Source of the DNA: Cupriavidus sp. WGlv3
Lineage (GTDB): Bacteria > Pseudomonadota > Gammaproteobacteria > Burkholderiales > Burkholderiaceae
Length of the DNA: 64,000 nt
Assembly: GCF_023952475.1 (NCBI RefSeq)
Contig: NZ_JALHRX010000001.1
Coordinates: forward strand, 124,001 to 188,000
Reading direction: 5' to 3'
The position numbers and the translations under genes were made by a program. The notes beneath the pieces are model-generated. The model was not told where the DNA came from and made no database searches. It saw only the letters and a program-made list of their open reading frames with translations. How positions within the stretch are numbered: the first letter of the stretch is position 1; the number at the start of each line of letters is the position of its first letter. This document shows positions 3,693 through 19,676 of this stretch, piece by piece.

Positions 3693-3732
3693 GGTGGGGT
3701 GGTTCGCTTCCCGATACATTGTTTCATTCAGT

Positions 3733-3745
3733 GATACCGCGTATC
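3733..3745. promoter_or_regulatory. 13-bp palindrome upstream of the importer operon
   Basis: GATAC-CGC-GTATC is a perfect inverted repeat, 41 bases before the binding-protein start. Its position between the upstream terminator and the first gene fits an operator. Which regulator would bind is not known; the neighbouring IclR protein is one candidate. Confidence 0.35.
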
Positions 3746-3808
3746 GAAGGATAAGACATCGAGGCCGTTCCCGATAAGCAGGGTTTACCCCCGAGGCGCC
3801 CTTCAGGC

Positions 3809-3835
3809 AAAAAAAACGGCGCCGAAGCGCCGTTT
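3809..3835 (-). terminator. Rho-independent terminator of the IclR gene
   Basis: Read on the minus strand, a GC-rich stem (AAACGGCGC / GCGCCGTTT) closes on a TTCG tetraloop and runs straight into about eight U residues. It lies 42 bases after the IclR stop codon and uncouples that gene from the ABC importer. Confidence 0.85.
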
Positions 3836-3876
3836 GGGACGGGAAGTGCGCGGGACGTGGCCGCGCGGTATCGGGC

Positions 3877-4635
3877 TCAGCCGCCCGTGTAGCCGAGTGC
3901 CCGCGACAGGTTGGCGGCCTCCGCCACCACCATCGCCACATGCTGGTCCAGCGCCTGCTGCGTGGTGCGGCTGGCCGGGCTGGCGATGCTCAGCGAGGCC
4001 ATCGCCGCGCCGCTGTGGTCGCGCAGCGGCGCGGCGGCGGAGACCGCGTCGGCATCGCGCTCGCCCACCGAGATCGCATAGCCGGCGGCACGGATCGCCG
4101 CCAGTTCCTCGCGCAGCGCCTGCGGCTCGATGATGGTCTTGGCGGTGAAGCGTTCCAGCTGTTGCGCCAGCACTGCCTCCAGCACCTCGGGTGCGGCGAA
4201 GGCCAGCAGCAGCTTGCCGGAGGCCCCCACATGCAGCGGCCGGCGGTTGCCGATTTCGGTATGCACCCGCACCGACTGCGTCGACTCGTGCCGCGCCACG
4301 CAGACCGACTCGAGCCCGTCGCGCACGCGCACGATCACGTTCTCGCCGCAGGCTGCGCCGATCGCCGCCAGCCGCGGGCCCACCAGCTTGACCAGGTCGA
4401 ACTGTTCGCGCGCGGCATTGCCCACCAGCAGCGCGTTGTAGCTGAGCTTGTAGACCGCCGCCGGCGACTCGCGCGCGATCAGGCCGCGGTGCTCGAGCGT
4501 GGTCAGCAGCCGGAACGCGCGCGCCTTGGTCAGTCCGGCGCGCCGTGCCAGCTCGGTCACGCCCAGCGATGGGTGCTCGGCCACCAGCATCAGCAGGCCC
4601 AGGGCCTCGTCCACCGCTTCAACGATGTAGGTCAT
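3877..4635 (-). CDS. IclR-family transcriptional regulator
   Basis: A 252-residue regulator. The N-terminal winged helix-turn-helix (about residues 5-65) reads 'EAVDEALGLLMLVAEHPSLGVTELARRAGLTKARAFRLLTTLEHRGLI'. The C-terminal IclR effector-binding domain has the family motif 'LHVGASGKLLLAF'. ATG 4635 is backed by AAGGA five bases ahead; the same frame runs on to 6081 antisense to the thiolase, but that part does not look like protein. It is divergent from the thiolase-like/DUF35 pair with a 249-bp shared control region, so it probably controls that pair and itself. A TACAAT -10 for this gene may lie at 4674-4679. Confidence 0.9.
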   Translation of the reverse strand: MTYIVEAVDEALGLLMLVAEHPSLGVTELARRAGLTKARAFRLLTTLEHRGLIARESPAAVYKLSYNALLVGNAAREQFDLVKLVGPRLAAIGAACGENVIVRVRDGLESVCVARHESTQSVRVHTEIGNRRPLHVGASGKLLLAFAAPEVLEAVLAQQLERFTAKTIIEPQALREELAAIRAAGYAISVGERDADAVSAAAPLRDHSGAAMASLSIASPASRTTQQALDQHVAMVVAEAANLSRALGYTGG

Positions 4636-4748
4636 CGATCCTTTTCGTCCAGATTCAGGAATATCCAGCGCAGATTGTAGCGGTCGCCGCAATCGTTCGC
4701 GCTGCAAGTGCCTTGCGCTCGGCCTCGATGCAAGGCTCCCCGTCCGTA

Positions 4749-4779
4749 CCGAATACACCCTTCTGCACTTCCGAATACA
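4749..4779. promoter_or_regulatory. Direct repeats CCGAATACA, 22 bp apart, in the IclR/thiolase control region
   Basis: Two identical 9-mers (4749-4757 and 4771-4779) are spaced by two helical turns in the region shared by the divergent IclR and thiolase-like genes. A separate palindrome GCAAG-TGC-CTTGC lies at 4704-4716. Either could be the regulator's binding site. The role is inferred from position only. Confidence 0.4.
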
Positions 4780-4884
4780 ACGCAGCGGGCAAGCTACGCA
4801 ATACTCTCGGGATCGCCGTGCCAGCATCGCCCCGTCCCGCCCCGCCCCCTCGCTGGCACCACCTGACGCACCGAAGGAGAACAG

Positions 4885-6051
4885 ATGAGCATCAACGGCA
4901 AGGCCTACATCGTCGGGGCCTACGAGCACCCGACCCGCAAGGCACCCGACAAGACCGTGGCACAGCTGCACGCCGAGAGCGCCAAGGGCGCGCTGCAGGA
5001 CGCCGGCCTGACCCTGGCCGACGTCGACGGCTATTTCTGCGCCGGCGACGCGCCCGGGCTGGGCGCGGTCAACATGGTCGACTACCTCGGCCTGAAGGTG
5101 CGCCATGTCGATTCCACCGACACCGGCGGTTCGGCCTACCTGGTCCATGTCTCGCATGCCGCGCAGGCGATCGCCGCCGGCAAGTGCAACGTCGCGCTGA
5201 TCACGCTGGCGGGCCGGCCGCGCTCGGAAGGCTCCACCGGCACGCAGGCGCGCAACTGGGGCGCCAACCTGCCCGACCTGCCGTTCGAAAGCCCGTTCAG
5301 CCCGGTCACGGTCAACCTGTACGCGATGGCGGCGATGCGCCATATGCACGAGTACGGCACCACCGCCGAGCAGCTCGCCTGGGTCAAGGTGGCGGCGTCG
5401 CACCACGCCCAGCACAACCCGCACGCCATGCTGCGCGACGTGGTCACGGTCGAAGACGTGCTGAACTCGCCGATGATCTCGGATCCGCTGCACAAGCTGG
5501 ACTGCTGCGTGGTCTCTGACGGCGGCGGCGCGCTGGTGGTGGCGCGTCCGGAGATCGCGGCCACGCTGCGGCGGCCCAAGGTGAAGATCCGCGGTGCCGG
5601 CGAATACATCAAGGGCCAGCTCGGCGGCGAAGTCGACCTGACTTGGTCCGGCGCGCGCTTCTCGGGCGCGACGGCGTTTGCCGAAGCGGGCGTGACCCCG
5701 GCCGATATCAAGTACGCGTCGATCTACGACAGCTTCACCATCACCGTGCTGATGCAGCTGGAAGACCTGGGCTTCTGCAAGAAAGGCGAAGGCGGCAGGT
5801 TCGTCGCCGACGGCAACCTGATCTCGGGCGTCGGCAAGCTGCCGTTCAATACCGATGGCGGCGGCCTGTGCAACAACCACCCGGCCAACCGCGGCGGCAT
5901 CACCAAGGTCATCGAAGCCGTGCGCCAGCTGCGCGGCGAGGCCCACCCCGCGGTGCAGGTCGCCAATTGCGACCTCGCGCTGGCGCAGGGCACCGGCGGC
6001 TACCTGGGCTCGCGCCACGGCAGCGCCACCCTGATCCTTGAACGTGAATAA
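4885..6051 (+). CDS. Thiolase-superfamily protein lacking the nucleophilic Cys (lipid-transfer/SCP2-type)
   Basis: A 388-residue thiolase fold. The N-terminal half shows 'VDGYFCAGDAP' and 'ADIKYASIYDSFT' is in the C-terminal half; the conserved 'HP' His sits at 332 in 'NTDGGGLCNNHPANRGG'. Where degradative and biosynthetic thiolases have the acyl-accepting Cys, this protein has Gly81-Gly82-Ser83 ('DTGGSAYLVHVSHA'). Such Cys-less proteins, paired with a DUF35 partner, include the Ltp2 aldolase that cleaves steroid side-chain CoA thioesters by retro-aldol reaction. A retro-aldolase or related CoA-thioester role is therefore more likely than thiolysis. ATG 4885 has AAGGAG at ideal spacing. The DUF35 gene follows after 17 bases. 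Confidence 0.85.
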   Translation: MSINGKAYIVGAYEHPTRKAPDKTVAQLHAESAKGALQDAGLTLADVDGYFCAGDAPGLGAVNMVDYLGLKVRHVDSTDTGGSAYLVHVSHAAQAIAAGKCNVALITLAGRPRSEGSTGTQARNWGANLPDLPFESPFSPVTVNLYAMAAMRHMHEYGTTAEQLAWVKVAASHHAQHNPHAMLRDVVTVEDVLNSPMISDPLHKLDCCVVSDGGGALVVARPEIAATLRRPKVKIRGAGEYIKGQLGGEVDLTWSGARFSGATAFAEAGVTPADIKYASIYDSFTITVLMQLEDLGFCKKGEGGRFVADGNLISGVGKLPFNTDGGGLCNNHPANRGGITKVIEAVRQLRGEAHPAVQVANCDLALAQGTGGYLGSRHGSATLILERE

Positions 6052-6068
6052 AGCGCGGGAGCACTGAC

Positions 6069-6467
6069 ATGACGACCCCACACATCCCCGCCGCCTACAA
6101 GGCGCCCGACGAACAGCCCGACAACCTGCCGTTCTGGCAGGCCGCGCGCGAGGGCAAGCTGCTGGTCAAGGTCTGCGACGACTGCGGCAAGCCGCACTGG
6201 TATCCGCGCGTGCTGTGCCCGTTCTGCATGGGCACCACCTCGTGGCAGCAGGCCAGCGGCCGCGGCACCATCTACACCTACAGCGTGACGCGCCGTGCCG
6301 GCCCCAACCCGTTCTGCATCGCCTACGTGAAGCTGGAAGAAGGCGTGACCATGATGACCCATATCGTCGACTGCGATCTCGACACGGTGCGGATCGGCCA
6401 GAAGGTGCAGGTCAAGTTCTCGCCCAGCGACGGCGGCGCACCGGTGCCGACCTTCACGCTCGCCTGA
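6069..6467 (+). CDS. DUF35 OB-fold protein with zinc ribbon, partner of the thiolase-like protein
   Basis: A 132-residue protein of the DUF35 (ChsH2-like) family. A short N-terminal helix is followed by a rubredoxin-like zinc ribbon with Cys36, Cys39, Cys50 and Cys53 (CDDC...CPFC) and then an OB-fold that binds acyl-CoA in family members. DUF35 proteins usually form a complex with the neighbouring thiolase-type subunit, as in Ltp2-ChsH2. The 17-bp gap to the upstream gene implies co-transcription and probably a stable complex. Confidence 0.88.
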   Translation: MTTPHIPAAYKAPDEQPDNLPFWQAAREGKLLVKVCDDCGKPHWYPRVLCPFCMGTTSWQQASGRGTIYTYSVTRRAGPNPFCIAYVKLEEGVTMMTHIVDCDLDTVRIGQKVQVKFSPSDGGAPVPTFTLA

Positions 6468-6472
6468 GGCCG

Positions 6473-6509
6473 CGCGGCGGTAGCGGGCGTTGCGCCCGCT
6501 ACCGCCGCG
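6473..6509. terminator. Long perfect hairpin between convergent genes
   Basis: Seventeen-base perfect arms flank a TTG loop (core GGTAGCGGGCG / CGCCCGCTACC). It lies between the convergent DUF35 and pirin stops. There is no T-run on either side, so it may end transcription from both directions only with help, or act as an mRNA 3'-end stabiliser. Confidence 0.55.
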
Positions 6510-6529
6510 GCCTGCTTGCTACCGGTTGC

Positions 6530-7405
6530 CTATTGCCGGCCCGCCGCCATGCTGCCGAAGCGGCCGCTGCTGAAGTCGCGGAACGCCTCGGCGATCTCGG
6601 CCTCGGTGTTCATCACGAACGGGCCATGGCCGACGATGGGCTCGTCGATCGGCTCGCCGCTGAGCAGCAGCACCACCGCATCGGTGCCGGCCTCGATGCT
6701 GACCGCATCGCCGGCGCCATCCAGCACTACCATCTCGGCATCGCGCACGGTGGCCTCGGCGTTGACCGTGACCTTGCCGCGCAGCACCACCAGCGCGGTA
6801 TGCCAGCCCTCGGGCAGCGCCACGCGCGTGCCGGCCCCCTGGTTCAGGCGCATGTCCCACACATGCATCGGCGTAAAGGTGCGTGCCGGGCCGCGCTTGC
6901 CTTCGTATTCGCCGGCAATCACGCGCACCGTGCCGGCGTCGCCGGGCATCGGCACCGCCGGGATATCGCGGTCGACGATGGCCTGGTAGCCCGGCGCGGC
7001 CATCTTGTCGCGCGCCGGCAGGTTGACCCACAGCTGCACCATCTCCAGCGCGCCGCCGCTTTGCGTAAACGCGGGCGAGTGGAACTCTTCATGCAGGATG
7101 CCGGCGCCCGCCGTCATCCATTGCACGTCGCCCGGACCGATGACCCCGCCCTGCCCGGTCGAGTCGCGGTGCGCGACCTCGCCCTTGTAGACGATGGTCA
7201 CGGTCTCGAAACCGCGGTGCGGATGCTGGCCGACGCCGCGCGGACGCTGCGTCGGCGTGAAGTCCGCCGGGCCGGCGTAGTCCAAAAGCAGGAACGGACT
7301 CAGCTGTTTGCCGTGGCTGGTGTACGAGAACATCGAACGCACCGGGAAACCATCCCCGACCCAGTGCGGACGCGGTGCGCTGTAGACACCCAGAATGCGC
7401 TTCAT
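6530..7405 (-). CDS. Pirin family protein
   Basis: A 291-residue bicupin. The N-terminal cupin has the pirin signature 'HPHRGFETVTIVYKGEVAHRD' and 'GILHEE', which supplies the three His and one Glu metal ligands. The C-terminal cupin begins near residue 170. Bacterial pirins are iron-binding; some have quercetinase activity and others modulate central metabolism, so the substrate is open. ATG 7405 is chosen over the track's upstream ATG because GGAG sits nine bases before it and homologues start with this MKRILGVYS-like strand. Confidence 0.9.
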   Translation of the reverse strand: MKRILGVYSAPRPHWVGDGFPVRSMFSYTSHGKQLSPFLLLDYAGPADFTPTQRPRGVGQHPHRGFETVTIVYKGEVAHRDSTGQGGVIGPGDVQWMTAGAGILHEEFHSPAFTQSGGALEMVQLWVNLPARDKMAAPGYQAIVDRDIPAVPMPGDAGTVRVIAGEYEGKRGPARTFTPMHVWDMRLNQGAGTRVALPEGWHTALVVLRGKVTVNAEATVRDAEMVVLDGAGDAVSIEAGTDAVVLLLSGEPIDEPIVGHGPFVMNTEAEIAEAFRDFSSGRFGSMAAGRQ

Positions 7406-7539
7406 GTCGATCTCCGAGAATGCCGGCCATGCGGGGGCCGGCAATGATCCATGAAGCGATGATAGGTGCCGCGGCCAGTGCGCGGTAGGCGGCGGGATTG
7501 CGATGCAGCGTCCTGCCGCTGGAACGACGCCGCCAGCGG

Positions 7540-8115
7540 TCAGAAGCGGTAGCGCACGTAGCCCATGCTGAAGTCGGTGCCGGGATTCGGGTCCTTGATG
7601 CCGGCGTTGGACAGGTGCTGGAAGCGGTAGCCGATGGTCAACCGCTGCGCCTTGCCGAAGGCGACGCCCACGCCGATCATGTCGGAAAACTGGAAGGCCG
7701 AGCCCATGCGATGGCCGCCGGCGATTTCGGTGTGGCTCAGCACACGCAGGCCCACCGAGGCCTCGACGAACGGCGTGGCGTACTCACCCGCATAGCTGAG
7801 CCGGAAGATCGGCGACACGCCGAACTCCATCAACTGGCTCGATGGCCGCGACGACAGTGCGCGCCAGTTGGCGACATTGACCTCGCCGTCCAGCGCCAGC
7901 GCCAGCCGGCTCGACAGCTGCCACTGCACGATCTCGTCCCAGCGCGCCGACACTTCGTATTTCTCCACGCCGTGCCGGTTGTCGCGCCCATAACCCGCCT
8001 GCATCGAGAATCCCGCGGCGCCGGCGGAGGACGGCAGCGCCAGCAGGCCAGCCGCAATCGACGCCAGAGCCGCGCGCGGCAGCCTCCCTGGCAATGTGTC
8101 TTTCTTCACTGACAT
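7540..8115 (-). CDS. PagL-like lipid A 3-O-deacylase, outer membrane
   Basis: A 191-residue protein with a signal peptide (residues 1-34, ending SSAGA) and an eight-strand beta-barrel pattern ending in the aromatic 'MGYVRYRF'. The PagL active-site motif is present as His167-x-Ser169 in 'FQHLSNAGI'. The third catalytic residue, Glu in characterised PagL, falls at Asp181 here, 14 residues after the His. PagL removes the 3-O-linked acyl chain from lipid A in the outer membrane. ATG 8115 is used because the open frame upstream reads through promoter and terminator DNA. Confidence 0.85.
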   Translation of the reverse strand: MSVKKDTLPGRLPRAALASIAAGLLALPSSAGAAGFSMQAGYGRDNRHGVEKYEVSARWDEIVQWQLSSRLALALDGEVNVANWRALSSRPSSQLMEFGVSPIFRLSYAGEYATPFVEASVGLRVLSHTEIAGGHRMGSAFQFSDMIGVGVAFGKAQRLTIGYRFQHLSNAGIKDPNPGTDFSMGYVRYRF

Positions 8116-8229
8116 CCGTATCTGTCGGGCAGCGCCTGCGAGATCGACGCGCCACCGCTTTGTTTTGATCACGGCTCGACACGATAGCAGCGCTTCGATA
8201 TTGCAGAAGCCCGTTCCAGGCAAACACAG

Positions 8230-8247
8230 TGTTCCAAAGCCGGAACA
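8230..8247. promoter_or_regulatory. 18-bp inverted repeat upstream of the pagL-like gene
   Basis: TGTTCC-N6-GGAACA is a perfect inverted repeat about 115 bases before the PagL-like start. It stands alone in a 268-bp intergenic region, between that gene and the pyc terminator. It could be an operator; no regulator is assigned. Confidence 0.35.
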
Positions 8248-8306
8248 ATGTTGCGGGACGCGCCACGAAGGCGAGGCATGGCGACCCGCCCGCAGCGTCA
8301 TCCAGA

Positions 8307-8342
8307 CAAAAAACCCCGGCAAGACCGAGGTCTTCCGGGGTT
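8307..8342 (-). terminator. Rho-independent terminator of pyc
   Basis: On the minus strand the long stem AACCCCGG-AAGACC / GGTCTT-CCGGGGTT ends in a run of six T. It lies about 40 bases after the pyc stop. It nearly matches the terminator at 13252-13292. Confidence 0.88.
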
Positions 8343-8383
8343 CCATGGATGGCCCGCACAGGCGCGGCGGGCCACGCCAGCTG

Positions 8384-11300
8384 TCAGTCCTTCAGTTCCA
8401 CCAGCAGGTCCTTCGCCGCCACCCGATCGCCCGCCTTCACATGCACCGCCGCGATCTCGCAGTCCCGGTCCGCGGCGATATGGGTCTCCATCTTCATCGC
8501 CTCCAGCGCCAGCAGCGTGGTGCCCGCGGCCACACGCTGGCCGGGCTGCACCGCCACTGTCACGATCGAACCCGGCATCGGCGCGGCGACATGCAGCGGG
8601 TTGTCCGGCTCGGCGACCGCCCGACCCTGGCGCGCGGTCGCGGCCTGCGCGGTGTTGCGCTGTTCGACCAGCGTGGTGCGCGACTGCCCGTTCAGCTCGA
8701 ACTGGACCTTGATCTTGCCTTCGTCGGCATCGGGATGGGTGCCCTGCAACGACACCAGCAAGGTCTTGCCGGGCTCGATGTCGATCGCCACCTCTTCCTG
8801 CGGCTGCAGGCCGTACAGGTAGGCCGGCGTGGGCACCACCGAGGTATCGCTGTACTGGCGCACATGCGCGTGGTACTCGGCGGCCTGCTTGGGATACATC
8901 AGGTACGAGGCCAGCTGGCGGTCGTCGAGCGGCTGCTCGCACGCCGCCGCGCCGGCGGCGCGGGCCGCGTCGAGGTCGACCGGTGCGATCTGGTCGCCGG
9001 GCCGGTACGGCGCCGGCGGCTCGCCGCGCAGCACCTTGCGCGACAGCGCCGCCGGGAAGCCGTCGGGCGGGAAGCCCAGCTCGCCCCGGAACAGCGACAC
9101 CACCGACTCCGGGAAGGCGATCTCCTTGCCCGGATTGCACACGTCGGCGGCGCTCAGGTCGTTGGCCACCATCATCAGCGCCAGGTCGCCGACCACCTTG
9201 GAGGTCGGCGTGACCTTGACGATATCGCCGAACATCTGGTTGACCTCGGCGTAGGCGCGCGAGACCTCGGTCCAGCGGTGTTCGATGCCAAGCGAGCGCG
9301 CCTGCTCGCGCAGGTTGGTGTACTGCCCGCCCGGCATCTCGTGGCGATAGACGTCGGCGGTGCCGGCGCGGATCTCGGATTCGAACGGCGCGTAGTAGCG
9401 GCGCACCCCCTCCCAGTACATCGACGCCTCGTGCAGGCGTTCCAGGTCCAGGCCCGGGTCGCGCTCGCTGCCGGCCAGCGCCGCGGCGATGCTCGACAGG
9501 TTGGGCTGCGAGGTCAGCCCGCTCATCGCGTCGAGCGCGCCGTCGACCGCGTCGCAGCCGGCCTCGATCGCGGCCAGCGCCGACGCGGCCGAGATGCCGC
9601 TGGTGTCGTGCGTGTGGAAGTGCACCGGCAGCCCGGTCTCTTCCTTGAGCGCCCTGACCAGCGCCGCGGCCGCCTGCGGCCGGCAGATGCCGGCCATGTC
9701 CTTGATGCCCAGCACATGCACGCCGGCTTGCTGCAGCTCGCGCGCGATGCCGACGTAGTACTTCAGGTCGTACCTGGAGCGCTTCGGATCGAACAGGTCG
9801 CCGGTATAGCAGATCGCGCCCTCGCACAGCGCGCCGCTTTCCCCCACTGCATCGATCGCCACGCGCATATTGCGCACCCAGTTGAGCGAATCGAACACGC
9901 GGAACACATCGACACCGGCGCTCGCCGCCTGGCGCACGAAGAAGCGCACCACGTTGTCGGCATAGTTGGTGTAGCCGACCGCATTGGAGCCGCGCAGCAG
10001 CATCTGGAACAGCACGTTGGGCACGCGCTCGCGCAACTGCTCCAGGCGCTGCCACGGGTCTTCCTTGAGGAAGCGCAGCGCCACGTCGAAGGTGGCGCCG
10101 CCCCAGCACTCCAGCGAGAACAGCTGCGACAGCTCGCGCGCATAGAACGGCGCGATCGGCAGCATGTCGGCGGTGCGCATGCGCGTGGCGAACAGCGACT
10201 GGTGCGCGTCGCGCATGGTGGTGTCGGTCAGCAGCACCTGCTTCTGCTCGAGCATCCAGCGCGAGAATTTCTCCGCGCCCAGCTCGCGCAGGCGGTCGCG
10301 CGTGCCGTACGGCAGCGCGGCGCTGGTGTCGATCGCCGGCAGCACCGGCGCGGGCAGCGGCAGCGACGGCAGCGTGCGCCCGCTCAGCTCCGGGTGCCCG
10401 TTGACGCTGACCTCGCCCAGGTAGCGCAGCAGCTTGGTGGCGCGGTCCTGGCGCCTGGCAAAGGCCAGCAGCTCGGGGGTCTTGTCGATAAAGCGCGTGG
10501 TGACGTCGCCCGAGCGGAACGCGGGATGGTTGATGACGTTCTCGAGGAACTGCAGGTTGGAGGCGACGCCGCGGATGCGGAACTCGCGCAGCGCGCGGTC
10601 CATGCGCCGCATCGATTCCGGCGCGGTCGGCGCCCAGGTGGTGACCTTGACCAGCAGCGAATCGTAGTACGGCGTGATCACCGCGCCGCCGTAGGCGGTG
10701 CCCGCATCGAGCCGCACGCCGAAGCCGGCGGCGCTGCGATACGCGGTCAGGCGGCCGTAGTCGGGCAGGAAACCGTTTTCGGGGTCCTCGGTGGTGATCC
10801 GGCACTGCAGCGCATGGCCGTTGAGGGCGATGTCCTGCTGCACCGGCACGCCCGCGGCGCGCACCACGATCCTGCCGTCGGCATCGCGCGTGTTCTCGGT
10901 CATGCCGATATGGCCGCCCTCGGTGATGCGGATCTGCGCCTTGACGATATCGATGCCGGTCACCATCTCGGTGACCGTGTGCTCGACCTGGATGCGTGGA
11001 TTGACTTCGATGAAGTAGAACTGGCCGGAGTCGGCATCCATCAAAAACTCGACCGTGCCGGCGTGGGTATAGCCGACCGCGCGCATCAGCCGCAGCGCCG
11101 ACTCGCACAGCGCGCTGCGCCCGGCATCGTCCAGGTACGGCGCCGGCGCGCGCTCGACCACCTTCTGGTTGCGCCGCTGCACGGTGCAGTCGCGCTCGTA
11201 CAGGTGCACCAGGTTGCCGTGCGTGTCGCCCAGCACCTGCACTTCGACGTGGCGCGCATTGCGCACCAGTTTCTCGACGTAGACCTCGTCGTTGCCGAAT

Positions 11301-11887
11301 GCCGCCAGCGCCTCGCGCCGCGCCGCGGCCAGCGCGCCCTCCAGGTCCTGCTCGCTCTCGAGCACGCGCATGCCGCGCCCGCCGCCGCCCCAGCTCGCCT
11401 TCAACATCAGCGGATAGCCGATGCCGGCGGCGAGGCGCTTGCACGCCTCCAGGTCATGCGGCAATGGATCGGTAGCCGGCATCACGGGCACGCCCGCGGC
11501 GATCGCCGCGTTGCGCGCCGCGACCTTGTTGCCGAGCTTGCGCATCACCTCCGGCAACGGGCCGATCCAGCGGATGCCGGCATCGATCACGGCCTGCGCG
11601 AACTCCGGGTTCTCCGACAGGAAGCCATAGCCCGGATGGATCGCGTCGACCCCGGCCTGCCGCGCAATGCGCAGGATGTCGTCGATATCGAGATAAGCCG
11701 CCAGCGGCTTCTTGCCCTCGCCGACCAGGTAGCTCTCGTCGGCCTTGAAGCGATGCAGTGCGAGGCGGTCTTCCTTCGAATAGATCGCCACCGTGCGGAC
11801 GTTCATCTCGGCGGCCGCGCGCATCACGCGGATCGCGATCTCGGAGCGGTTGGCAATCAGCAGGGATTGGATCGGGCGGTAGTCCAT
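8384..11887 (-). CDS. pyc: Pyruvate carboxylase, single-chain
   Basis: A 1167-residue biotin enzyme that makes oxaloacetate from pyruvate, bicarbonate and ATP, refilling the TCA cycle. Domains in order are biotin carboxylase (about 1-460, Gly-rich ATP-grasp loop 'GGGGRGMRV', 'FIEVNPRIQVEHTVTE'), carboxyltransferase (about 540-830, 'LLTDTTMRDAHQSL', 'VLGIKDMAG'), tetramerisation, and biotin carrier with Lys1132 in 'LEAMKMETH'. Length is normal for the family. ATG 11887 gives the standard MDYRPIQSLLIANR start; the frame extends 23 codons further without likeness to the family. The 217 bp upstream hold no gene; an inverted repeat of GGAATT/AATTCC lies near 12059-12081. Confidence 0.97.
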   Translation of the reverse strand: MDYRPIQSLLIANRSEIAIRVMRAAAEMNVRTVAIYSKEDRLALHRFKADESYLVGEGKKPLAAYLDIDDILRIARQAGVDAIHPGYGFLSENPEFAQAVIDAGIRWIGPLPEVMRKLGNKVAARNAAIAAGVPVMPATDPLPHDLEACKRLAAGIGYPLMLKASWGGGGRGMRVLESEQDLEGALAAARREALAAFGNDEVYVEKLVRNARHVEVQVLGDTHGNLVHLYERDCTVQRRNQKVVERAPAPYLDDAGRSALCESALRLMRAVGYTHAGTVEFLMDADSGQFYFIEVNPRIQVEHTVTEMVTGIDIVKAQIRITEGGHIGMTENTRDADGRIVVRAAGVPVQQDIALNGHALQCRITTEDPENGFLPDYGRLTAYRSAAGFGVRLDAGTAYGGAVITPYYDSLLVKVTTWAPTAPESMRRMDRALREFRIRGVASNLQFLENVINHPAFRSGDVTTRFIDKTPELLAFARRQDRATKLLRYLGEVSVNGHPELSGRTLPSLPLPAPVLPAIDTSAALPYGTRDRLRELGAEKFSRWMLEQKQVLLTDTTMRDAHQSLFATRMRTADMLPIAPFYARELSQLFSLECWGGATFDVALRFLKEDPWQRLEQLRERVPNVLFQMLLRGSNAVGYTNYADNVVRFFVRQAASAGVDVFRVFDSLNWVRNMRVAIDAVGESGALCEGAICYTGDLFDPKRSRYDLKYYVGIARELQQAGVHVLGIKDMAGICRPQAAAALVRALKEETGLPVHFHTHDTSGISAASALAAIEAGCDAVDGALDAMSGLTSQPNLSSIAAALAGSERDPGLDLERLHEASMYWEGVRRYYAPFESEIRAGTADVYRHEMPGGQYTNLREQARSLGIEHRWTEVSRAYAEVNQMFGDIVKVTPTSKVVGDLALMMVANDLSAADVCNPGKEIAFPESVVSLFRGELGFPPDGFPAALSRKVLRGEPPAPYRPGDQIAPVDLDAARAAGAAACEQPLDDRQLASYLMYPKQAAEYHAHVRQYSDTSVVPTPAYLYGLQPQEEVAIDIEPGKTLLVSLQGTHPDADEGKIKVQFELNGQSRTTLVEQRNTAQAATARQGRAVAEPDNPLHVAAPMPGSIVTVAVQPGQRVAAGTTLLALEAMKMETHIAADRDCEIAAVHVKAGDRVAAKDLLVELKD

Positions 11888-12104
11888 GGCGGCAAGAAAA
11901 TGGCCCTCCGGGCGCGCTGGCCACGGAAAGTCGGGTGATGGGGAATGGCGGATCACAGGCGCGAACCAGCATGCGCCTGCATCCTGGTGGGCGCAAGAAA
12001 CGAGCCACCGACGCTCTTGTTGATTTACAAAAGGATTTTCAGTGCCGCCACGCCCGCTTGGAATTCAAAACTGAAATTCCCCCGCCGTTTCATGCGAATT
12101 CCAG

Positions 12105-13052
12105 CTATCGCCCCGTACCGGTCTTGTCCACCTGCAGCGCGAATTCGATGCACTCCGCGCTCGGCCCCGTCCACTGGCCAAACCCGATCCAGCCGTGCCC
12201 CCTCAGCGTGACCTCGTCGCGGCGCAAAATGAATGGCTCGGCGCCGTCCATGCAGACGTGGGTGCCGTTCGAGCTCCTGTCGATCAGCACATACCTGCCG
12301 GCGCGCGGCTCGGCCATGGCCTGGAACCGCGACGCGAGGCGGTCCGACACCACGATGGTCATGCCGGCGTCACGTCCGATGGTAACCGGCGCCGAGACCG
12401 CGTTCATCTCGACCACGGTGTCCCGGTAGCGCAAGGTGAGGAAGGCGGCATGCGCCAGCGGCTCCTTGAACCCCGCGATCAGGGTCAGGTCGGTGGCCTG
12501 CTGCCAGATCGCCTCGTACAACTCGACCGGCTGCGCCCTGCCGCGCACGTGGATCGGGTACAGGTAGCGCGTCATCTGGCGCAGCGGCGCGGGCAGGTCC
12601 GCGACCGCATCCTTGCTGGTGATGATCTGTCCGCGCGCGGCGAGCCCGGCCAGCCGCGCGGCCAGGTTGACGGCGTCGCCGAAGACATCGCCGGACGCAT
12701 CGGACAGGATCGGGCCATGATGGAAGCCGATGTGGGACGACATGGTGAAGCCAGCCACGGGCGGCAGCTCGGCAACCGCCCGCTGTATGTCCAATGCCGC
12801 CTGCAAGGCCTGCTCGGCACAGGGGAACAGCACCATGACCTCATCGCCGATGGTCTTGACCAGCCGGCCTTGCGAGGCCTCGGAACAGGACTTCATCGCA
12901 CCGATGCAACGGCCGACCGCGGCAAGGGCGGCGGCGTTGCCCGCCCGCTCATAGAGCCGCGTACTGCCGCTGACATCCGCGAACAGTACCGAACCCTCCG
13001 ACGCCTGGTGCAGCAGTTCCCGGTCCATGTGCATCCCGATCCGTCCCGCCAT
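12105..13052 (-). CDS. Class III adenylate/guanylate cyclase fused to a C-terminal FHA domain
   Basis: A 315-residue cytoplasmic signalling protein. The cyclase domain (about 18-185) has metal-binding Asp26 and Asp70, purine-selecting Lys66 and Asp122, and transition-state Asn129 and Arg133 ('DAVNLAARL'). The K-4-D, D-7-N and N-4-R spacings match active class III adenylate cyclases, and Lys/Asp favours ATP over GTP. Residues about 205-305 form an FHA-type domain ('VTIGRDAG', 'SSNGTHV'), but the usual phosphothreonine-site His is Gln244 in 'SRFQA'. There is no membrane segment. The start is uncertain: ATG 13052 has a weak GGAG; 13097 and 13034 are alternatives. Confidence 0.85.
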   Translation of the reverse strand: MAGRIGMHMDRELLHQASEGSVLFADVSGSTRLYERAGNAAALAAVGRCIGAMKSCSEASQGRLVKTIGDEVMVLFPCAEQALQAALDIQRAVAELPPVAGFTMSSHIGFHHGPILSDASGDVFGDAVNLAARLAGLAARGQIITSKDAVADLPAPLRQMTRYLYPIHVRGRAQPVELYEAIWQQATDLTLIAGFKEPLAHAAFLTLRYRDTVVEMNAVSAPVTIGRDAGMTIVVSDRLASRFQAMAEPRAGRYVLIDRSSNGTHVCMDGAEPFILRRDEVTLRGHGWIGFGQWTGPSAECIEFALQVDKTGTGR

Positions 13053-13251
13053 CGCCGCGCGGCGCTCCGGCCAGCTGCCGGCGCCACGCCCCCGCATGCA
13101 GGGAATTCTGGCACCGGCAAAGCCGATGCTCAATATGAATCTGGAGCGCGCTGGGGCGAGGGAGGGAAGGAGATCGGCGCACGCATCATGTGAACGGCGC
13201 AAGGCAACGCGAACGGATTGCCGATGATGAGGGATGCGCCCTGCGGGGCGC

Positions 13252-13292
13252 CCAAAAAACAAAACCCCGGAAGACCGCGATCTTCCGGGGTT
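13252..13292 (-). terminator. Rho-independent terminator after tRNA-Ser
   Basis: On the minus strand a perfect 12-bp stem (AACCCCGGAAGA / TCTTCCGGGGTT) with a six-base loop is followed by a T-rich tract of about 11 bases. It lies 24 bases beyond the tRNA 3' CCA. Confidence 0.9.
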
Positions 13293-13315
13293 CCGCCGCC
13301 AAGGACGGTTGTCAT

Positions 13316-13409
13316 TGGCGGAGACGGAGGGATTCGAACCCTCGATCCAGGTTTTGGCCCGGATGCTCCCTTAGCAGGGGAGTGCCTTCGACCTCTCGGC
13401 CACGTCTCC
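13316..13409 (-). tRNA. tRNA-Ser, anticodon GCU
   Basis: A 94-base class II tRNA with encoded CCA. The acceptor stem is GGAGACG / CGTCTCC. The anticodon loop CTGCTAA gives GCU, reading AGC/AGU codons. A long variable arm and the T-loop GGTTCGAATCC are present. It is transcribed away from lysC. No integrase or direct repeat is seen next to it. Confidence 0.97.
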
Positions 13410-13538
13410 CAAACTTGCGTTGTGTGAGGGAGCCACACAACGAAGCGCGTATTCTAGCGATGCCACCGGGGTTGGTCAATGAAAAATCGATGACTCAACA
13501 CAAATTTTGCGGCCTCGCCAGAAAAGCTTACGAACGGA

Positions 13539-14792
13539 TCACGCCTGTTCCAGTTCGAAGGCCTTGTGCAGCGCGCGCACGGCCAGCTCCATGTACTTCT
13601 CGTCGATCAGCACCGAGATCTTGATTTCCGAGGTGGAGATCATCTGGATGTTGATGCCCTCTTCCGACAGCGTGCGGAACATCTTGCTGGCGATGCCGAC
13701 GTGCGAGCGCATGCCCACGCCCACCACCGACACCTTCGACACCTTGGGGTCGCCCGACACGCTGCCGGCGCCGATGTGCGCCTTCACGCCATCGTTCAGG
13801 ATCGCCAGCGCGCGCTGGTACTCGCCGCGCGGCACGGTGAAGGTGAAGTCGGTCTTGCCGTCGACGGACTGGTTCTGGATGATCATGTCGACGTCGATGT
13901 TGGCGTCGGCGACCGGGCCCAGGATCTGGTAGGCGATGCCGGGCTTGTCGGGCACGCCCAGGACGGTGATCTTGGCTTCGTCGCGGGCAAAGGCGATGCC
14001 GGAGATGACAGCGGCTTCCATGGTGGAGTCTTCTTCCTCAAAAGTGATCAGCGTGCCCGAGTGCATTTCCTGCTCGAGCGGCATAAGCGGGTCGGTCAGC
14101 GACGACAGCACGCGGGTCTTGACGCGGTACTTGCCGGCGAACTCCACCGAGCGGATCTGCAGCACCTTGGAGCCCAGGCTGGCCATTTCCAGCATTTCCT
14201 CGAAGGTGATCTGGTCCAGGCGGCGGGCATCCTCGACCACGCGCGGGTCGGTGGTGTAGACGCCGTCGACGTCGGTGTAGATCAGGCACTCGTCGGCCTC
14301 GATCGCGGCGGCAATCGCCACGGCCGAGGTGTCGGAGCCGCCGCGCCCCAGCGTGGTGATGTTGCCGTCGTCGTCGATGCCCTGGAAGCCAGTGATCACC
14401 ACCACGCGGCCGGCGTCGAGGTCGGCCAGGATGCGCTCGTCGTCGATCGATTCGATGCGGGCCTTGGTGTAGGACGAATCGGTCTTCACCGGAACCTGCC
14501 AGCCGGTGTAGCTGACGGCGTCGATGTCCTCGCCGTGCAGGGCGATCGCCAGCAGCGCCACGCTGGCCTGTTCGCCGGTGGAGGCGAGCATGTCCAGTTC
14601 ACGCGGATTGGGCTGGGGCGAAATTTCCTTGGCGAGTCCCAGCAGGCGATTGGTCTCGCCCGACATGGCCGAAGGCACCACGACTACGCGGTGACCGGCG
14701 CGGTGCCACTTGGCCACGCGCTTGGCGACATTCTTGATGCGTTCCGTGGAACCCATCGAAGTGCCGCCGTATTTGTGAACGATGAGAGCCAT
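13539..14792 (-). CDS. lysC: Aspartate kinase
   Basis: A 417-residue monofunctional aspartokinase, the first step from aspartate to lysine, threonine and methionine. The kinase domain opens with '[11 protein letters not shown]' (residues 5-14) and carries '[16 protein letters not shown]'. Two ACT domains fill the last 160 residues ('[17 protein letters not shown]', '[19 protein letters not shown]') and mediate feedback by lysine and threonine in related enzymes. ATG 14792 is preferred because homologues start [10 protein letters not shown]; 15 upstream codons are not conserved in character. tRNA-Ser follows 130 bases downstream on the same strand. Confidence 0.97.
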
Positions 14793-14935
14793 CTTCTTGT
14801 CGACGCCAGCGATTGTGCAAAGCCCTTGAAAATACACGAAGCGGCCCGGTCAGGCAAGGCGCACGGGGACTATCTGGGCCAGACCGATGTGATGCCGGCG
14901 GCTGGCGAGCGCCATCGAGGTGCCGTTCGGCAAGG

Positions 14936-16390
14936 TCAGCGCGGCGGCGTTGCCAGCGTCGGCGCCTGCGGTTGCCACGCCACGCGCCAGCGCGGCGCCG
15001 GTGCGGCGTCGGGCCAGCGGCGATGCATGCCCAGTCCGGCGGCGAGCACCAGCGTGTCCCCGGCCCACAGCAACGGCAGCCAGGCCCGGCGCCAGGCCGG
15101 GATGCCGGCTTCCTGGCAGGCCTGCTTCAGCGCCCGCGCGGGGCCGCCGGGGCGCAGCACGATGCGCTCGCCGCCGCTGCGCGCGGCCAGGCGCAAAGGC
15201 TGCCGCAGCACCGCTTCGGGCACGCCGAAGGTGTCGTCGCGGAAGAAATGGAGTTCGCCGCGCCAGGCGGGCACGACGATGCGCGCCTCGCCGCGCCAGT
15301 CCAGCAGCACCGGCGCGGGCGCCTGCGCCGGCGGCGGCACGCAGGCCAGCACGCGCTCGCGGAAGCGGCGCAGCACCAGGCCTTCATGCGCGATGGCCGG
15401 CTCGCCGCCCGTGTGCGCAATCAGCTGCTCGCGCATCGCCGCCAGCCGCGCGGTTGAAGGGGCGCGCACGCCGAGGTCGCGCAGCCACAGGCGCAGCACC
15501 GCATCGGCCTGCGCCGCCGGCAGCGCGCGCAGGCCGGGCAGGTCGAGTTCGGACAGCGTGTCGGCGTCGCGGCCGGCACGCGCCAGCGTCGCCAGCGCGG
15601 TGGCGGCGAGCTGGTCGATCAGCGCGCCGGCCTGGGCAAAATGCGCGGCCGCCTGCACCACGTTGATCGCCAGCGCGGGAAATGCCGCCTGCAGGGCCGG
15701 CAGTTGCGCACGCAGGGCGTTGCGCGCATAGCGGCCGTCGGCATTGGACGGGTCGTCCACCCACTGCAGCGCGTTGGCGGCGCAGTAGGCCTCGATGCCG
15801 GCGCGCGGAACATCGAGCCACGGGCGCAGCAGCATCACGCCGCTGTGCGGATCCAGCGGGCGCAGCGCCGGCATGCCCGCCATGCCGGCCACGCCGGCGC
15901 CGCGGAACAGCCGCAGCAGCACGGTCTCGACCTGGTCGTCCTGGTGATGGGCAAACAGCAGCATGCGCGTGCCGCTGTCGGCGCACATCGCCGCAAGCGC
16001 GGCATAGCGCGCGCGGCGCGCGGCGGCTTCGATGCCCTCGCCCGCCGACGGCCGCACCGACACGCGCCGCACGAAATAGCCGACCTGCCACTGCGCGCAC
16101 AGCGCGGCGCAGAAGCGGTCCCAGTCGTCGGCCTCGGCCTGCAGGCCGTGATGGACATGCAGCGCCACCACGCGCGCGCCATCGCCCGCCTGCGCCACCG
16201 CCGCGCGCGCGGCATGCAGCAGCGCGACCGAGTCGCGCCCGCCCGACAGCGCCACCGCGACCGTCGGCGCAGCCGCCGTGGCGTCGCCAGAAACAACAAA
16301 GGCCGCACCGGCCTGCAGGGCCTGTGCGACCTTGTCGGTCAGCCGGGCGGACGGGTCAGTCCTGGGCGCCGGTTTCCTTGAACTTGCCAT
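14936..16390 (-). CDS. tilS: tRNA(Ile)-lysidine synthase
   Basis: A 484-residue N-type ATP pyrophosphatase that converts C34 of the CAU-anticodon tRNA-Ile to lysidine, so that it reads AUA as Ile. The PP-loop reads SGGRDS at residues 49-54, with Arg in the variable position. 'HHQDDQVET' (about residue 145) is the second ATP-binding motif. The TilS-specific and C-terminal substrate-binding domains follow. It starts at ATG 16390, inside the last 35 bases of accA in another frame, so translation is probably coupled. It is about 50 residues longer than the E. coli enzyme. Confidence 0.92.
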
Positions 16391-17327
16391 AGGCCAGCAG
16401 GCGCTCGTAGCGGCGCGCCTGCAATTCCTTCACGCTCATGCCCTGGAACTGGCGCAGCGACTCGGCCAGCGAGCGCTTGAGCATTGCCGCCATGCCCTTG
16501 TAGTCGCGGTGCGCGCCGCCCAGCGGCTCGCTCACGATCTTGTCGATCAGGCCCAGCGCCTTCAGCCGGTGCGCGGTCAGGCCCAGCGCCTCGGCGGCTT
16601 CCGGCGCCTTCTCGGCGGTCTTCCACAGGATCGAGGCACAGCCTTCCGGCGAGATCACCGCGTAGGTGGCGAACTGCAGCATCTGCACCACGTCGCCCAC
16701 GGCAATTGCCAGCGCGCCGCCCGAACCGCCCTCGCCGATGATGGTGGCGATCAGCGGCACCTTCAGGCCGGCCATCACGTATAGGTTGTGGCCGATGGCC
16801 TCGGACTGGCCGCGCTCTTCGGCATCGATGCCGGGGAACGCGCCCGGGGTGTCGACGAAGGTGAAGATCGGCAGGCCGAACTTGTCGGCCAGCTCCATCA
16901 GGCGCTTGGCCTTGCGGTAGCCCTCGGGCTTGGGCATGCCGAAATTGCGCATGGCGCGCTCTTTCGTGTCGCGGCCCTTCTGGTGCCCGATCACCATGCA
17001 CGACTGGCCATTGAAGCGGGCCAGGCCGCCGATGATCGACAGGTCGTCGGCGAAGGTGCGGTCGCCGTGCAGTTCGTGGAAATCGGTAAAGATCTCGCGC
17101 ACGTAGTCCAGCGTATAGGGGCGCTGGGGGTGGCGGGCGATTTGCGCAACCTGCCACGGGGTCAGGTTGGCATAGATATCTTTGGTCAGCTGCTGGCTCT
17201 TGCCGGCCAGCCGCGAAATCTCTTCGGAAATATCGACAGCCGAATCGTCCTGCACGAAGCGCAGTTCTTCGATCTTTGCCTCGAGTTCGGCAATGGGCTG
17301 CTCAAAATCCAGGAAGGTGGTTTTCAT
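16356..17327 (-). CDS. accA: Acetyl-CoA carboxylase carboxyltransferase subunit alpha
   Basis: A 323-residue subunit that, with AccD, transfers the carboxyl group from biotin to acetyl-CoA to form malonyl-CoA for fatty acid synthesis. Family features visible are '[11 protein letters not shown]', '[13 protein letters not shown]', the oxyanion/CoA region '[22 protein letters not shown]' and '[11 protein letters not shown]'. Length is typical. ATG 17327 has no strong ribosome site; a TAGAAT -10 lies about 33 bases upstream. The 3' end overlaps tilS by 35 bases. Confidence 0.97.
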
Positions 17328-17359
17328 AAAATCACACGTACCTGTCTGTGAAGGGGCGC

Positions 17360-17365
17360 ATTCTA
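17360..17365 (-). promoter_or_regulatory. Probable -10 element for accA-tilS
   Basis: TAGAAT on the minus strand, about 33 bases before the accA ATG, in the 115-bp gap after the glycosylase gene. No good -35 is seen. Confidence 0.45.
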
Positions 17366-17442
17366 CCGGAAATTGGGCGCTATCTTAGCGCCTGCCAGAT
17401 AGCCCGGACTGCACCCGCCGTTAAATTTTGTTGTTGCGATGC

Positions 17443-18287
17443 TTAATACGTCACAGGCAATGGGTCGAGGCTGCGCCACATATACCAGGTGGCCACGGTG
17501 CGCCACGGCTCCCAGTTGGCCGCCACCTCGCGCGCCTCGCTGCGCGTGACCGGTTCGCCGCTGAAATAGTTGGTCGAGATGGCGTTGATCAGCCCGATGT
17601 CGTCAAGCGGCAGCACATTGGGCCGCATCAGGTTGAACATCAGGAACATCTCGGCGGTCCAGCGGCCGATGCCGCGGATCTGCGTCAGCTCGGCGATGAC
17701 GGCCTCGTCGTCCATCTGCGCCCACTGCGCGACGTGCACGGTGCCGGCCTTGAAGTGCCCGGCCAGGTCGATCAGGTATTCCGCCTTGCGCTTGGACACG
17801 CCGCAGCCCGCCAGTTTCTCGGGGCCGGCACGCAGGAACTGCGCCGGCGCTAGCCGGGGGCAGACCGCGTGCAGGCGTTCCCACACCGACTGCGCCGCCT
17901 TGACCGAGATCTGCTGGCCCACCACCGCGCGCGCCAGCGTGACGAACGGGTCGCCGCGCGAGACCAGGTGCGCGGGACCGTAGGTCGGGATCATCTTGCG
18001 CAGGATGCGGTCGCGCTTCATCAGGTCCGCGCAAGCCTCGTCCCAGTAGGCGGGTCGCACCGTGTCGGCCACGGTCTCGACCGGCAGCGGCACCGCCTGC
18101 GCCTCGGGCAGCACGGACCTGGCGTTGCGCGTGGCCTTGGCCGCGGGCCGCGCGTCCTTGCTGGTGTCCTTGCCGTCGGGCAGCGGCGCTTCCCTGGCGC
18201 CGGCCTTGGCCGGGCGCGGGCCGGCCGCCTTCGCCCGGCCCGCGGCGGCGGGGGACGTGGCGGTGGCGGGCTTGCGCGCGGCAGCGT

Positions 18288-18303
<16 letters not shown>
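17443..18303 (-). CDS. DNA-3-methyladenine glycosylase II-like (HhH-GPD) protein
   Basis: A 286-residue base-excision repair glycosylase. The catalytic half (about 85-286) has the helix-hairpin-helix '[18 protein letters not shown]' followed by 'VLPLDDIGL', whose Asp is the catalytic residue. '[20 protein letters not shown]' is the AlkA-family signature. The first 80 residues are a low-complexity Ala/Lys/Pro/Arg tail. The open frame begins at a GTG at 18303 that overlaps the cysS stop by 16 bases; the true start could lie further in. It removes alkylated purines such as 3-methyladenine. Confidence 0.88.

Positions 18304-19676
<1,373 letters not shown>

Follow-up and report, generated by a model that had tools for sequence, protein, structure and literature searches.

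A protein encoded on the minus strand of the DNA analyzed here, a stretch of 64,000 nucleotides from Cupriavidus sp. WGlv3 (the window; C1:124001-188000), joins a class III nucleotide cyclase through a linker to an FHA domain. In our judgment the evidence tips slightly toward this FHA-cyclase being a phosphothreonine-gated adenylyl cyclase similar in plan to GarA and OdhI, in which the protein's own FHA domain reads phosphothreonine and for which the dedicated kinase is missing in Cupriavidus. If this is true, such proteins tie Ser/Thr protein kinases directly to cAMP in proteobacteria, a connection that was found from gene neighborhood and a shared short motif.

The FHA-cyclase gene, recognized from Pfam matches and near-identical Cupriavidus orthologues, occupies positions 12105 to 13052, its frame running from 13052 down to 12105 on the minus strand and yielding a product of 315 amino acids. 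An earlier note on this DNA had given these coordinates correctly and had described a class III cyclase with a C-terminal FHA domain in one protein, and the Pfam matches to both domains bear it out. The start of the protein is uncertain (Met1, Met7, or Met9), and its first ~14 residues are unconserved in our 108-row alignment. This alignment left out L004 and L005 (own copies) and L032; nine of its rows come from matches that had been extended and so read through a stop codon; these rows were retained, the stop being written as a letter (in the tree, as X). The gene is flanked by an aspartokinase gene (lysC-like) and a tRNA-Ser at one end and by a pyruvate carboxylase gene at the other, and no type VI secretion genes were found among its immediate neighbors.

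Among the best 80 of 560 confirmed relatives, which made up our nearest-locus set, the nearest sequences came from Cupriavidus alkaliphilus (99%), followed by other Cupriavidus. Close full-length homologues (E <= 1e-100) were present in 20 of the 36 Cupriavidus genomes searched, own genome included, and homologues at E <= 1e-40 in 7 of 24 genomes outside the genus. As a side observation, the interval in which the gene sits, between tRNA-Ser(GCT)/lysC and pyc (window 13316-13409 and 11956-13539), appears to be a variable, insertion-prone locus next to a tRNA, because genome G015 has an identical lysC product, no close FHA-cyclase, and a lysC-to-pyc distance of 13.4 kb.

The cyclase homology domain (residues 19-184; 12501 to 12998, minus strand) is supported by a Pfam Guanylate_cyc match to residues 19-173 (E=1.1e-13, above Pfam's cut-off) and by an AF2 model. 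The six catalytic residues listed in the earlier note are present with the spacings that it gave, and each is kept in 106 to 108 of the 108 rows. All on the minus strand, the metal-binding positions Asp26 (12975 to 12977) and Asp70 (12843 to 12845) and the purine-specifying Lys66 (12855 to 12857) are found in 108/108 rows, the other purine-specifying position, Asp122 (12687 to 12689), and the transition-state residue Asn129 (12666 to 12668) in 107/108 rows each, and the transition-state residue Arg133 (12654 to 12656) in 106/108, with Lys in the other two. Structure prediction, which had been proposed as a check on the fold, recovered both the cyclase and the FHA fold. A whole-protein AF2 model built on a 63-sequence alignment had a mean pLDDT of 85.6 with one poor inner stretch (residues 186-200), and Foldseek returned the cyclase homology domain fold at an E of 2.5e-12. 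The cyclase half of the model aligned with Rv1900c (VIA-align Z 25.1, rmsd 1.6, 163 aligned) and with Ma1120 (VIA-align Z 23.7). Ma1120 and Rv1900c are class IIIc cyclases, and they share with the FHA-cyclase the catalytic fold and the short arm. Their matched chains, however, are cyclase domains without an FHA domain, whereas the FHA-cyclase has one at residues 205-300.

The short segment between metal-binding Asp and purine-specifying Asp that marks short-arm cyclases such as Ma1120 is present in the FHA-cyclase. The step from Asp70 to Asp122 is 51 or 52 residues in 107/108 rows, and the cyclase domain aligns with Ma1120 (4wp8) with a one-residue gap on each side and no more. By comparison, the alignment with 4p2m, which we take to be a class IIIa cyclase of the Rv1625c type, uses 145 residues against 132 of the query. 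The short segment pointed out in the earlier note is therefore real, but such a length is normal among the small class III cyclases of bacteria. We rejected it as an unusual feature, since it is family-wide and as in Ma1120.

A Lys/Asp pair at the purine-specifying positions is associated with ATP, and from these residues ATP is the predicted substrate; the protein probably makes cAMP and is presumably a soluble homodimer. That the domain is a guanylyl cyclase instead, or is catalytically idle, strikes us as very unlikely. Such a reading gains from the fact that the substrate is assigned solely from residue identity, but the ATP-associated Lys66 and Asp122 are kept in 108 and 107 of the 108 rows, and dN/dS is low (0.02-0.13 for the cyclase domain in nine pairs within the Gln244 clade described below).

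The FHA domain (residues 205-300; 12153 to 12440, minus strand) is supported by a Pfam FHA match to residues 223-266 (E=1e-5, above Pfam's cut-off), by invariant positions in the 108-row alignment, and by AF2 with Foldseek. Modeled alone (AF2, residues 185-315), the FHA part reached a pLDDT of 88.8, and Foldseek matched this model to the FHA domains of Rv1747 (FHA-1), ArnA, EmbR, GarA, and OdhI; the closest solved FHA sequences include OdhI, ArnA, and GarA. The phosphopeptide motifs of FHA domains are worded as GR, SxxH, and NG in an excerpt of PMC1262709. In the window protein this set is incomplete: GR, the Ser, and NG are present, and, as the earlier note had reported, the usual His is Gln244 (12321 to 12323, minus strand; codon 12323-12321). 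Gly226, Arg227, Ser241, Arg242, Asn262, and Gly263 are invariant (108/108 rows), and position 244 is Gln in 32 rows and His in 76; His is also found in 27/27 loci of a wider Pseudomonadota sample. Judged by sequence, then, the FHA motif is complete in most of the family, and the Gln244 clade misses one letter.

In an IQ-TREE tree, Gln244 appeared as one His-to-Gln change on one Cupriavidus branch (support 100/93), and Paraburkholderia and the C. basilensis group retained His244. The tree held 100 of the 108 rows (27 with Gln), identical rows and two over 420 amino acids having been left out, and column 244 itself was included. A recent local defect or a sequencing error was considered for Gln244 and rejected, the residue being found in 32 rows and on one supported branch. 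The dN/dS of the FHA domain was 0.05-0.14 in nine pairs with Gln244, close to that of the cyclase domain in the Gln244 pairs, versus 0.06-0.16 in four pairs with His, and the domain is under purifying selection. Six FHA positions are invariant and dN/dS is low; therefore, the site is kept, with one residue altered. The "altered phosphopeptide site" of the earlier note holds to this extent, but Gln244 is no proof of a dead or reprogrammed site, because it is a single lineage change in a domain whose other counted positions are invariant and which is under purifying selection.

These data also bear on an alternative that we regard as unlikely, namely, that the FHA domain of the Gln244 clade is a phospho-independent scaffold or dimerization domain and that the cyclase is controlled by its expression level or by another ligand. 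In line with this, Gln244 arose once and was kept in all 32 rows of the Cupriavidus clade, and no dedicated kinase was found (0/21 Cupriavidus and Paraburkholderia loci; 155.8 bits for the best match in own genome). OdhI offers a precedent: an excerpt of PMC10415282 has it binding OdhA through its FHA domain, and one of PMC9769921 has it inhibiting OdhA when unphosphorylated. Weighing against it are the six invariant FHA positions, a linker motif (below) that is present in 32/32 Gln244 rows, and dN/dS values about equally low in Gln and His pairs.

The remark in the earlier note that no Ser/Thr kinase lies nearby is true of the window, which contains none, the sole PF00069 match on contig C1 being at 407472-408269; it is misleading for the family. 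Among the best 80 of 560 relatives, scanned with a profile over six-frame open reading frames, 46 of the 59 loci outside Cupriavidus and Paraburkholderia have a Ser/Thr kinase no more than 3 kb from the FHA-cyclase, versus 0/21 loci within these two genera. The 59 loci are mostly betaproteobacterial, with some labeled only Proteobacteria, one labeled Gammaproteobacteria (L100), and one labeled "bacterium." Profile matches were weak in three of the 46 (L066, 29.7 bits; L091, 69.8; L112, 116) and 327 bits or more in the remainder, and four of the 13 loci with no kinase within 3 kb have less than 1.2 kb of downstream DNA. Kinase density was 2.61 per 10 kb within 1.5 kb of the FHA-cyclase, 0.13 to 0.22 at 1.5 to 6 kb, and 0 at 6 to 8 kb. 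The nearest kinase was convergent and downstream in 34 loci, codirectional and downstream in 9, and upstream in 3, and these three arrangements imply that the link has survived rearrangement. Pkinase E values were 1.5e-48 to 3.2e-59 for the six linked kinases scanned, and the catalytic Lys, HRD, and DFG are retained in 20/20 aligned linked kinases. The kinases of L089 and L109 are further off and of other types, and a short open reading frame in L098 matched nothing.

Some of these loci showed further features. Secreted-looking proteins (judged by eye; no Pfam match) lie directly upstream of the linked kinase, on its strand, as at L062:11407-13189 and L070:11436-12230 (minus); they recur in more than 20 loci and may be partners of the kinase in signaling. 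At L062:3261-6637, and also in L082, L085, and L093, a second kinase, different in type, lies upstream of the FHA-cyclase at a distance of 2.5 to 4.6 kb, and it is followed by an AAA ATPase in L062 and L082. At L102:8936-9442 (minus), what by eye resembles a broken leftover of the N-terminal part of the linked kinase stands beside an intact FHA-cyclase, possibly a snapshot of kinase loss.

As a test on sequences outside the first set, we turned to a wider sample of 249 Pseudomonadota genomes, and it gave a different neighbor. With own genome counted, 46 of the 249 hold a match to the FHA-cyclase profile at E <= 1e-60. From the 52 matches listed we chose 27 loci, one per genome, from 27 genomes and 21 genera. 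The kinase linkage was not replicated in them (0/27 within 1.5 kb; L202 has one kinase at 2.9 kb). A PP2C-type phosphatase instead adjoins the FHA-cyclase in 21/27, on the same strand and with the open frames at most 135 bases apart, and four of four linked phosphatases scanned matched Pfam PP2C_2. All 21 loci are from genomes outside the window's class and so are related to each other. The six loci without PP2C are L189, which has only 0.7 kb of upstream DNA, and L201-L205, which have neither a kinase nor a PP2C partner and of which four of five are from the window's class or order. L109 has an adjacent PP2C together with a kinase of another type 3.1 kb off. All six catalytic residues are present in 26 of the 27 wider loci, and GR, SR, the His, and NG are in 27/27. 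The kinase link in one part of the tree and the phosphatase link in another point in the same direction.

Between the two domains of the FHA-cyclase lies the linker (residues 185-204; 12441 to 12500, minus strand), which is mostly disordered (pLDDT < 50 at 186-200). It holds a candidate phosphosite, Thr190 (12483 to 12485, minus strand), in a [D/E]-x-T-hydrophobic motif. Thr190 was found in 105/108 rows, in 71/74 rows after thinning to <90% identity, and in 41/41 Cupriavidus and Paraburkholderia rows, the three rows with no Thr at this position being L112, L031, and L031b; Asp or Glu stands at 188 in 103/108. In the wider sample, Thr aligned at 190 in 25/27 loci, and a looser form of the motif, with Thr or Gln also permitted after the Thr, occurred in 22/27. 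Most of the 13 cyclases without an FHA domain that we inspected show no such motif in the linker place. L130, one of these cyclases, matches the pattern (AERTVAT) at the same place in what looks like a chance occurrence.

The same motif recurs in the partner proteins. The linked kinases contain [D/E]-x-T-[LIVM] in 38/41, with 81 copies versus 5.3 expected (SD, 2.2; maximum, 14; 1000 shuffles), counts that are descriptive because the motif was first noticed in those kinases. The 41 are the kinases that pass a glycine-loop pattern, of 46 kinase loci, and the region scanned ran from the kinase domain to the membrane segment or, if none was found, over the next 90 residues. The linked kinase of L162 has no motif. 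After thinning, the motif was present in 14/16 linked kinases versus 15/37 unlinked kinases (Fisher p=0.002); the latter, which we selected from a list of kinases in relatives and which our survey did not place close to any FHA-cyclase, themselves exceeded their shuffle mean of 3.6 kinases. In the PP2C proteins, an acidic loop has Thr at one aligned column in 21/21 sequences (by eye). The strict motif occurs in 12/21 loops, with 15 copies versus 3.6 expected (maximum, 11; 1000 shuffles), the pattern having been fixed before the count, but after it had been seen by eye in two PP2C sequences. The loop was located by alignment, a first regular expression having caught 3/21 sequences only.

We considered whether Thr190 is structural, for example, a cap after the last strand, with the FHA domain merely docking the cyclase onto a phosphorylated kinase or PP2C protein and thereby localizing cAMP production. 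Trp183, two residues past the last cyclase strand, is likewise invariant, and part of the linker may therefore be structural. In addition, L124, the closest cyclase without an FHA domain, reads EDMVSS at the linker place, keeping W...ED and not the Thr, and the presence of the motif in kinases and PP2C proteins would itself suit a docking role. Residues 186-200, however, have a pLDDT below 50, and the acidic-x-Thr-hydrophobic pattern is identical to that of the kinase linkers and PP2C loops. On this evidence a structural Thr190 seems to us a fairly unlikely explanation.

Returning to phosphothreonine gating, a model is provided by the actinobacterial kinase PknG, in which, according to an excerpt of PMC8546545, a disordered extension carries threonines that the kinase has itself phosphorylated; the FHA domain of GarA or OdhI is anchored on them, and phosphorylation of the FHA protein rises as a result. 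The anatomy of the FHA-cyclase loci is similar, and on this ground we propose docking, Thr190 phosphorylation, capture, and a change in activity. In many relatives, mostly betaproteobacteria, the neighboring Ser/Thr kinase would phosphorylate [D/E]-x-T-hydrophobic threonines in its own linker, and the FHA domain of the cyclase would dock on these phosphothreonine motifs. Thr190 of the cyclase linker would then be phosphorylated, which would constitute the switch: the phosphorylated Thr190 would be captured by the FHA domain of the same or the partner chain, dimer geometry would change, and with it cyclase activity, whether up or down. In the other lineage, the neighboring PP2C phosphatase, with its similar motif, may reset the switch. 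We infer the dimer, the phosphorylation of Thr190, the docking, and the switch mechanism by analogy. Control through the FHA domain and Thr phosphorylation had been suggested in the earlier note, and the kinase linkage (46/59), the PP2C linkage (21/27), and the near-invariant linker Thr lend it support. More tentatively, and with somewhat less than an even chance of being right, kinase, PP2C protein, and FHA-cyclase may use a common acidic-x-Thr-hydrophobic code for docking, through which a single FHA domain could tether all three, in a widespread module that has no name. On that reading the Cupriavidus cyclase, which has no dedicated kinase and one changed FHA residue, would be a natural experiment in rewiring.

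With its dedicated kinase missing, the Cupriavidus copy would have to respond to a different cellular kinase or operate under relaxed control. Since Thr190 (41/41 rows) and the FHA site are retained in Cupriavidus and Paraburkholderia, another kinase would be expected to serve. A search of own genome for the dedicated kinase gave no strong match (the best, at 155.8 bits, is on C87), and none of the 36 Cupriavidus genomes exceeded 258 bits for the kinase profile, compared with 412 to 484 bits for the three kinases that the same search showed to be convergent with an FHA-cyclase. The C87 kinase has the motif twice in its 716-residue frame, which by a rough estimate is about the composition expectation; the motif is absent from L116 and its adjoining PP2C protein, and also from the parts of L117 and L119 that were read. 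With the motif at about chance level in the first and absent from L116 and its PP2C protein, we name no candidate partner. Outside the genus, a kinase above 280 bits was found in 7/7 genomes with an FHA-cyclase versus 7/17 without, a weak co-occurrence across genomes.

Each part of this arrangement is already known: class III cyclases, FHA domains, kinase-FHA-phosphatase sets, and kinase-cyclase fusions. Like GarA and OdhI (kinases PknG/PknB), in which the FHA domain is preceded by a phosphorylatable acidic-Thr stretch, the FHA-cyclase has its candidate Thr190 before the FHA domain. GarA and OdhI, however, inhibit metabolic enzymes in trans, whereas the FHA domain here is fused to the enzyme; the motif is [D/E]-x-T-hydrophobic rather than ETTS; and GarA and OdhI have a cognate kinase, whereas the window genome has neither a linked kinase nor a strong match to the partner profile. 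The kinase PpkA, the PP2C-type phosphatase PppA, and Fha act as a set in threonine phosphorylation of type VI secretion, as an excerpt of PMC5995506 describes. The output of that set is secretion, compared to a predicted nucleotide cyclase output here, and, unlike in that set, no single FHA-cyclase was seen with both a kinase and a PP2C near it, L109 excepted. PKN2 of Myxococcus appears as a kinase-cyclase fusion in an excerpt of PMC1262709. PKN2 and the TOMM kinase/cyclase fusions combine a Ser/Thr kinase with a class III cyclase, as the FHA-cyclase loci do; these fusions are one chain, whereas the FHA-cyclase and its kinase are separate genes with a predicted FHA-phosphothreonine contact. 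The match of the FHA-cyclase to NCBIfam TIGR03903 (TOMM kinase/cyclase fusion) is far below that family's cut-off. In the open literature, a scope that leaves most subscription journals outside, we found no paper on this family or on the linkage of an FHA-cyclase with either a kinase or a PP2C.

Own genome contains four class III cyclases and no class I cyclase, 15 places with a cyclic-nucleotide-binding domain (14 above the cut-off), six kinase matches, and one further FHA protein, which has two FHA domains. A cluster in own genome, L138 (C87:452000-471500), comprises at 2522-18866 a Ser/Thr kinase, an FGE-sulfatase-like protein on the opposite strand, and the double-FHA protein, along with OEP and HlyD exporters, a sigma-54 activator, and a C39-peptidase ABC transporter that itself carries two cyclic-nucleotide-binding domains. 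From its gene content, this cluster may couple phosphorylation and cyclic nucleotide sensing to an exporter. Finally, the FHA-cyclase occurs in tandem copies at L132 (G040:C2), L133 (G059:C1), and L199 (G081:C104), and in both G059 copies Arg133 is replaced by Lys and Thr190 is not kept.
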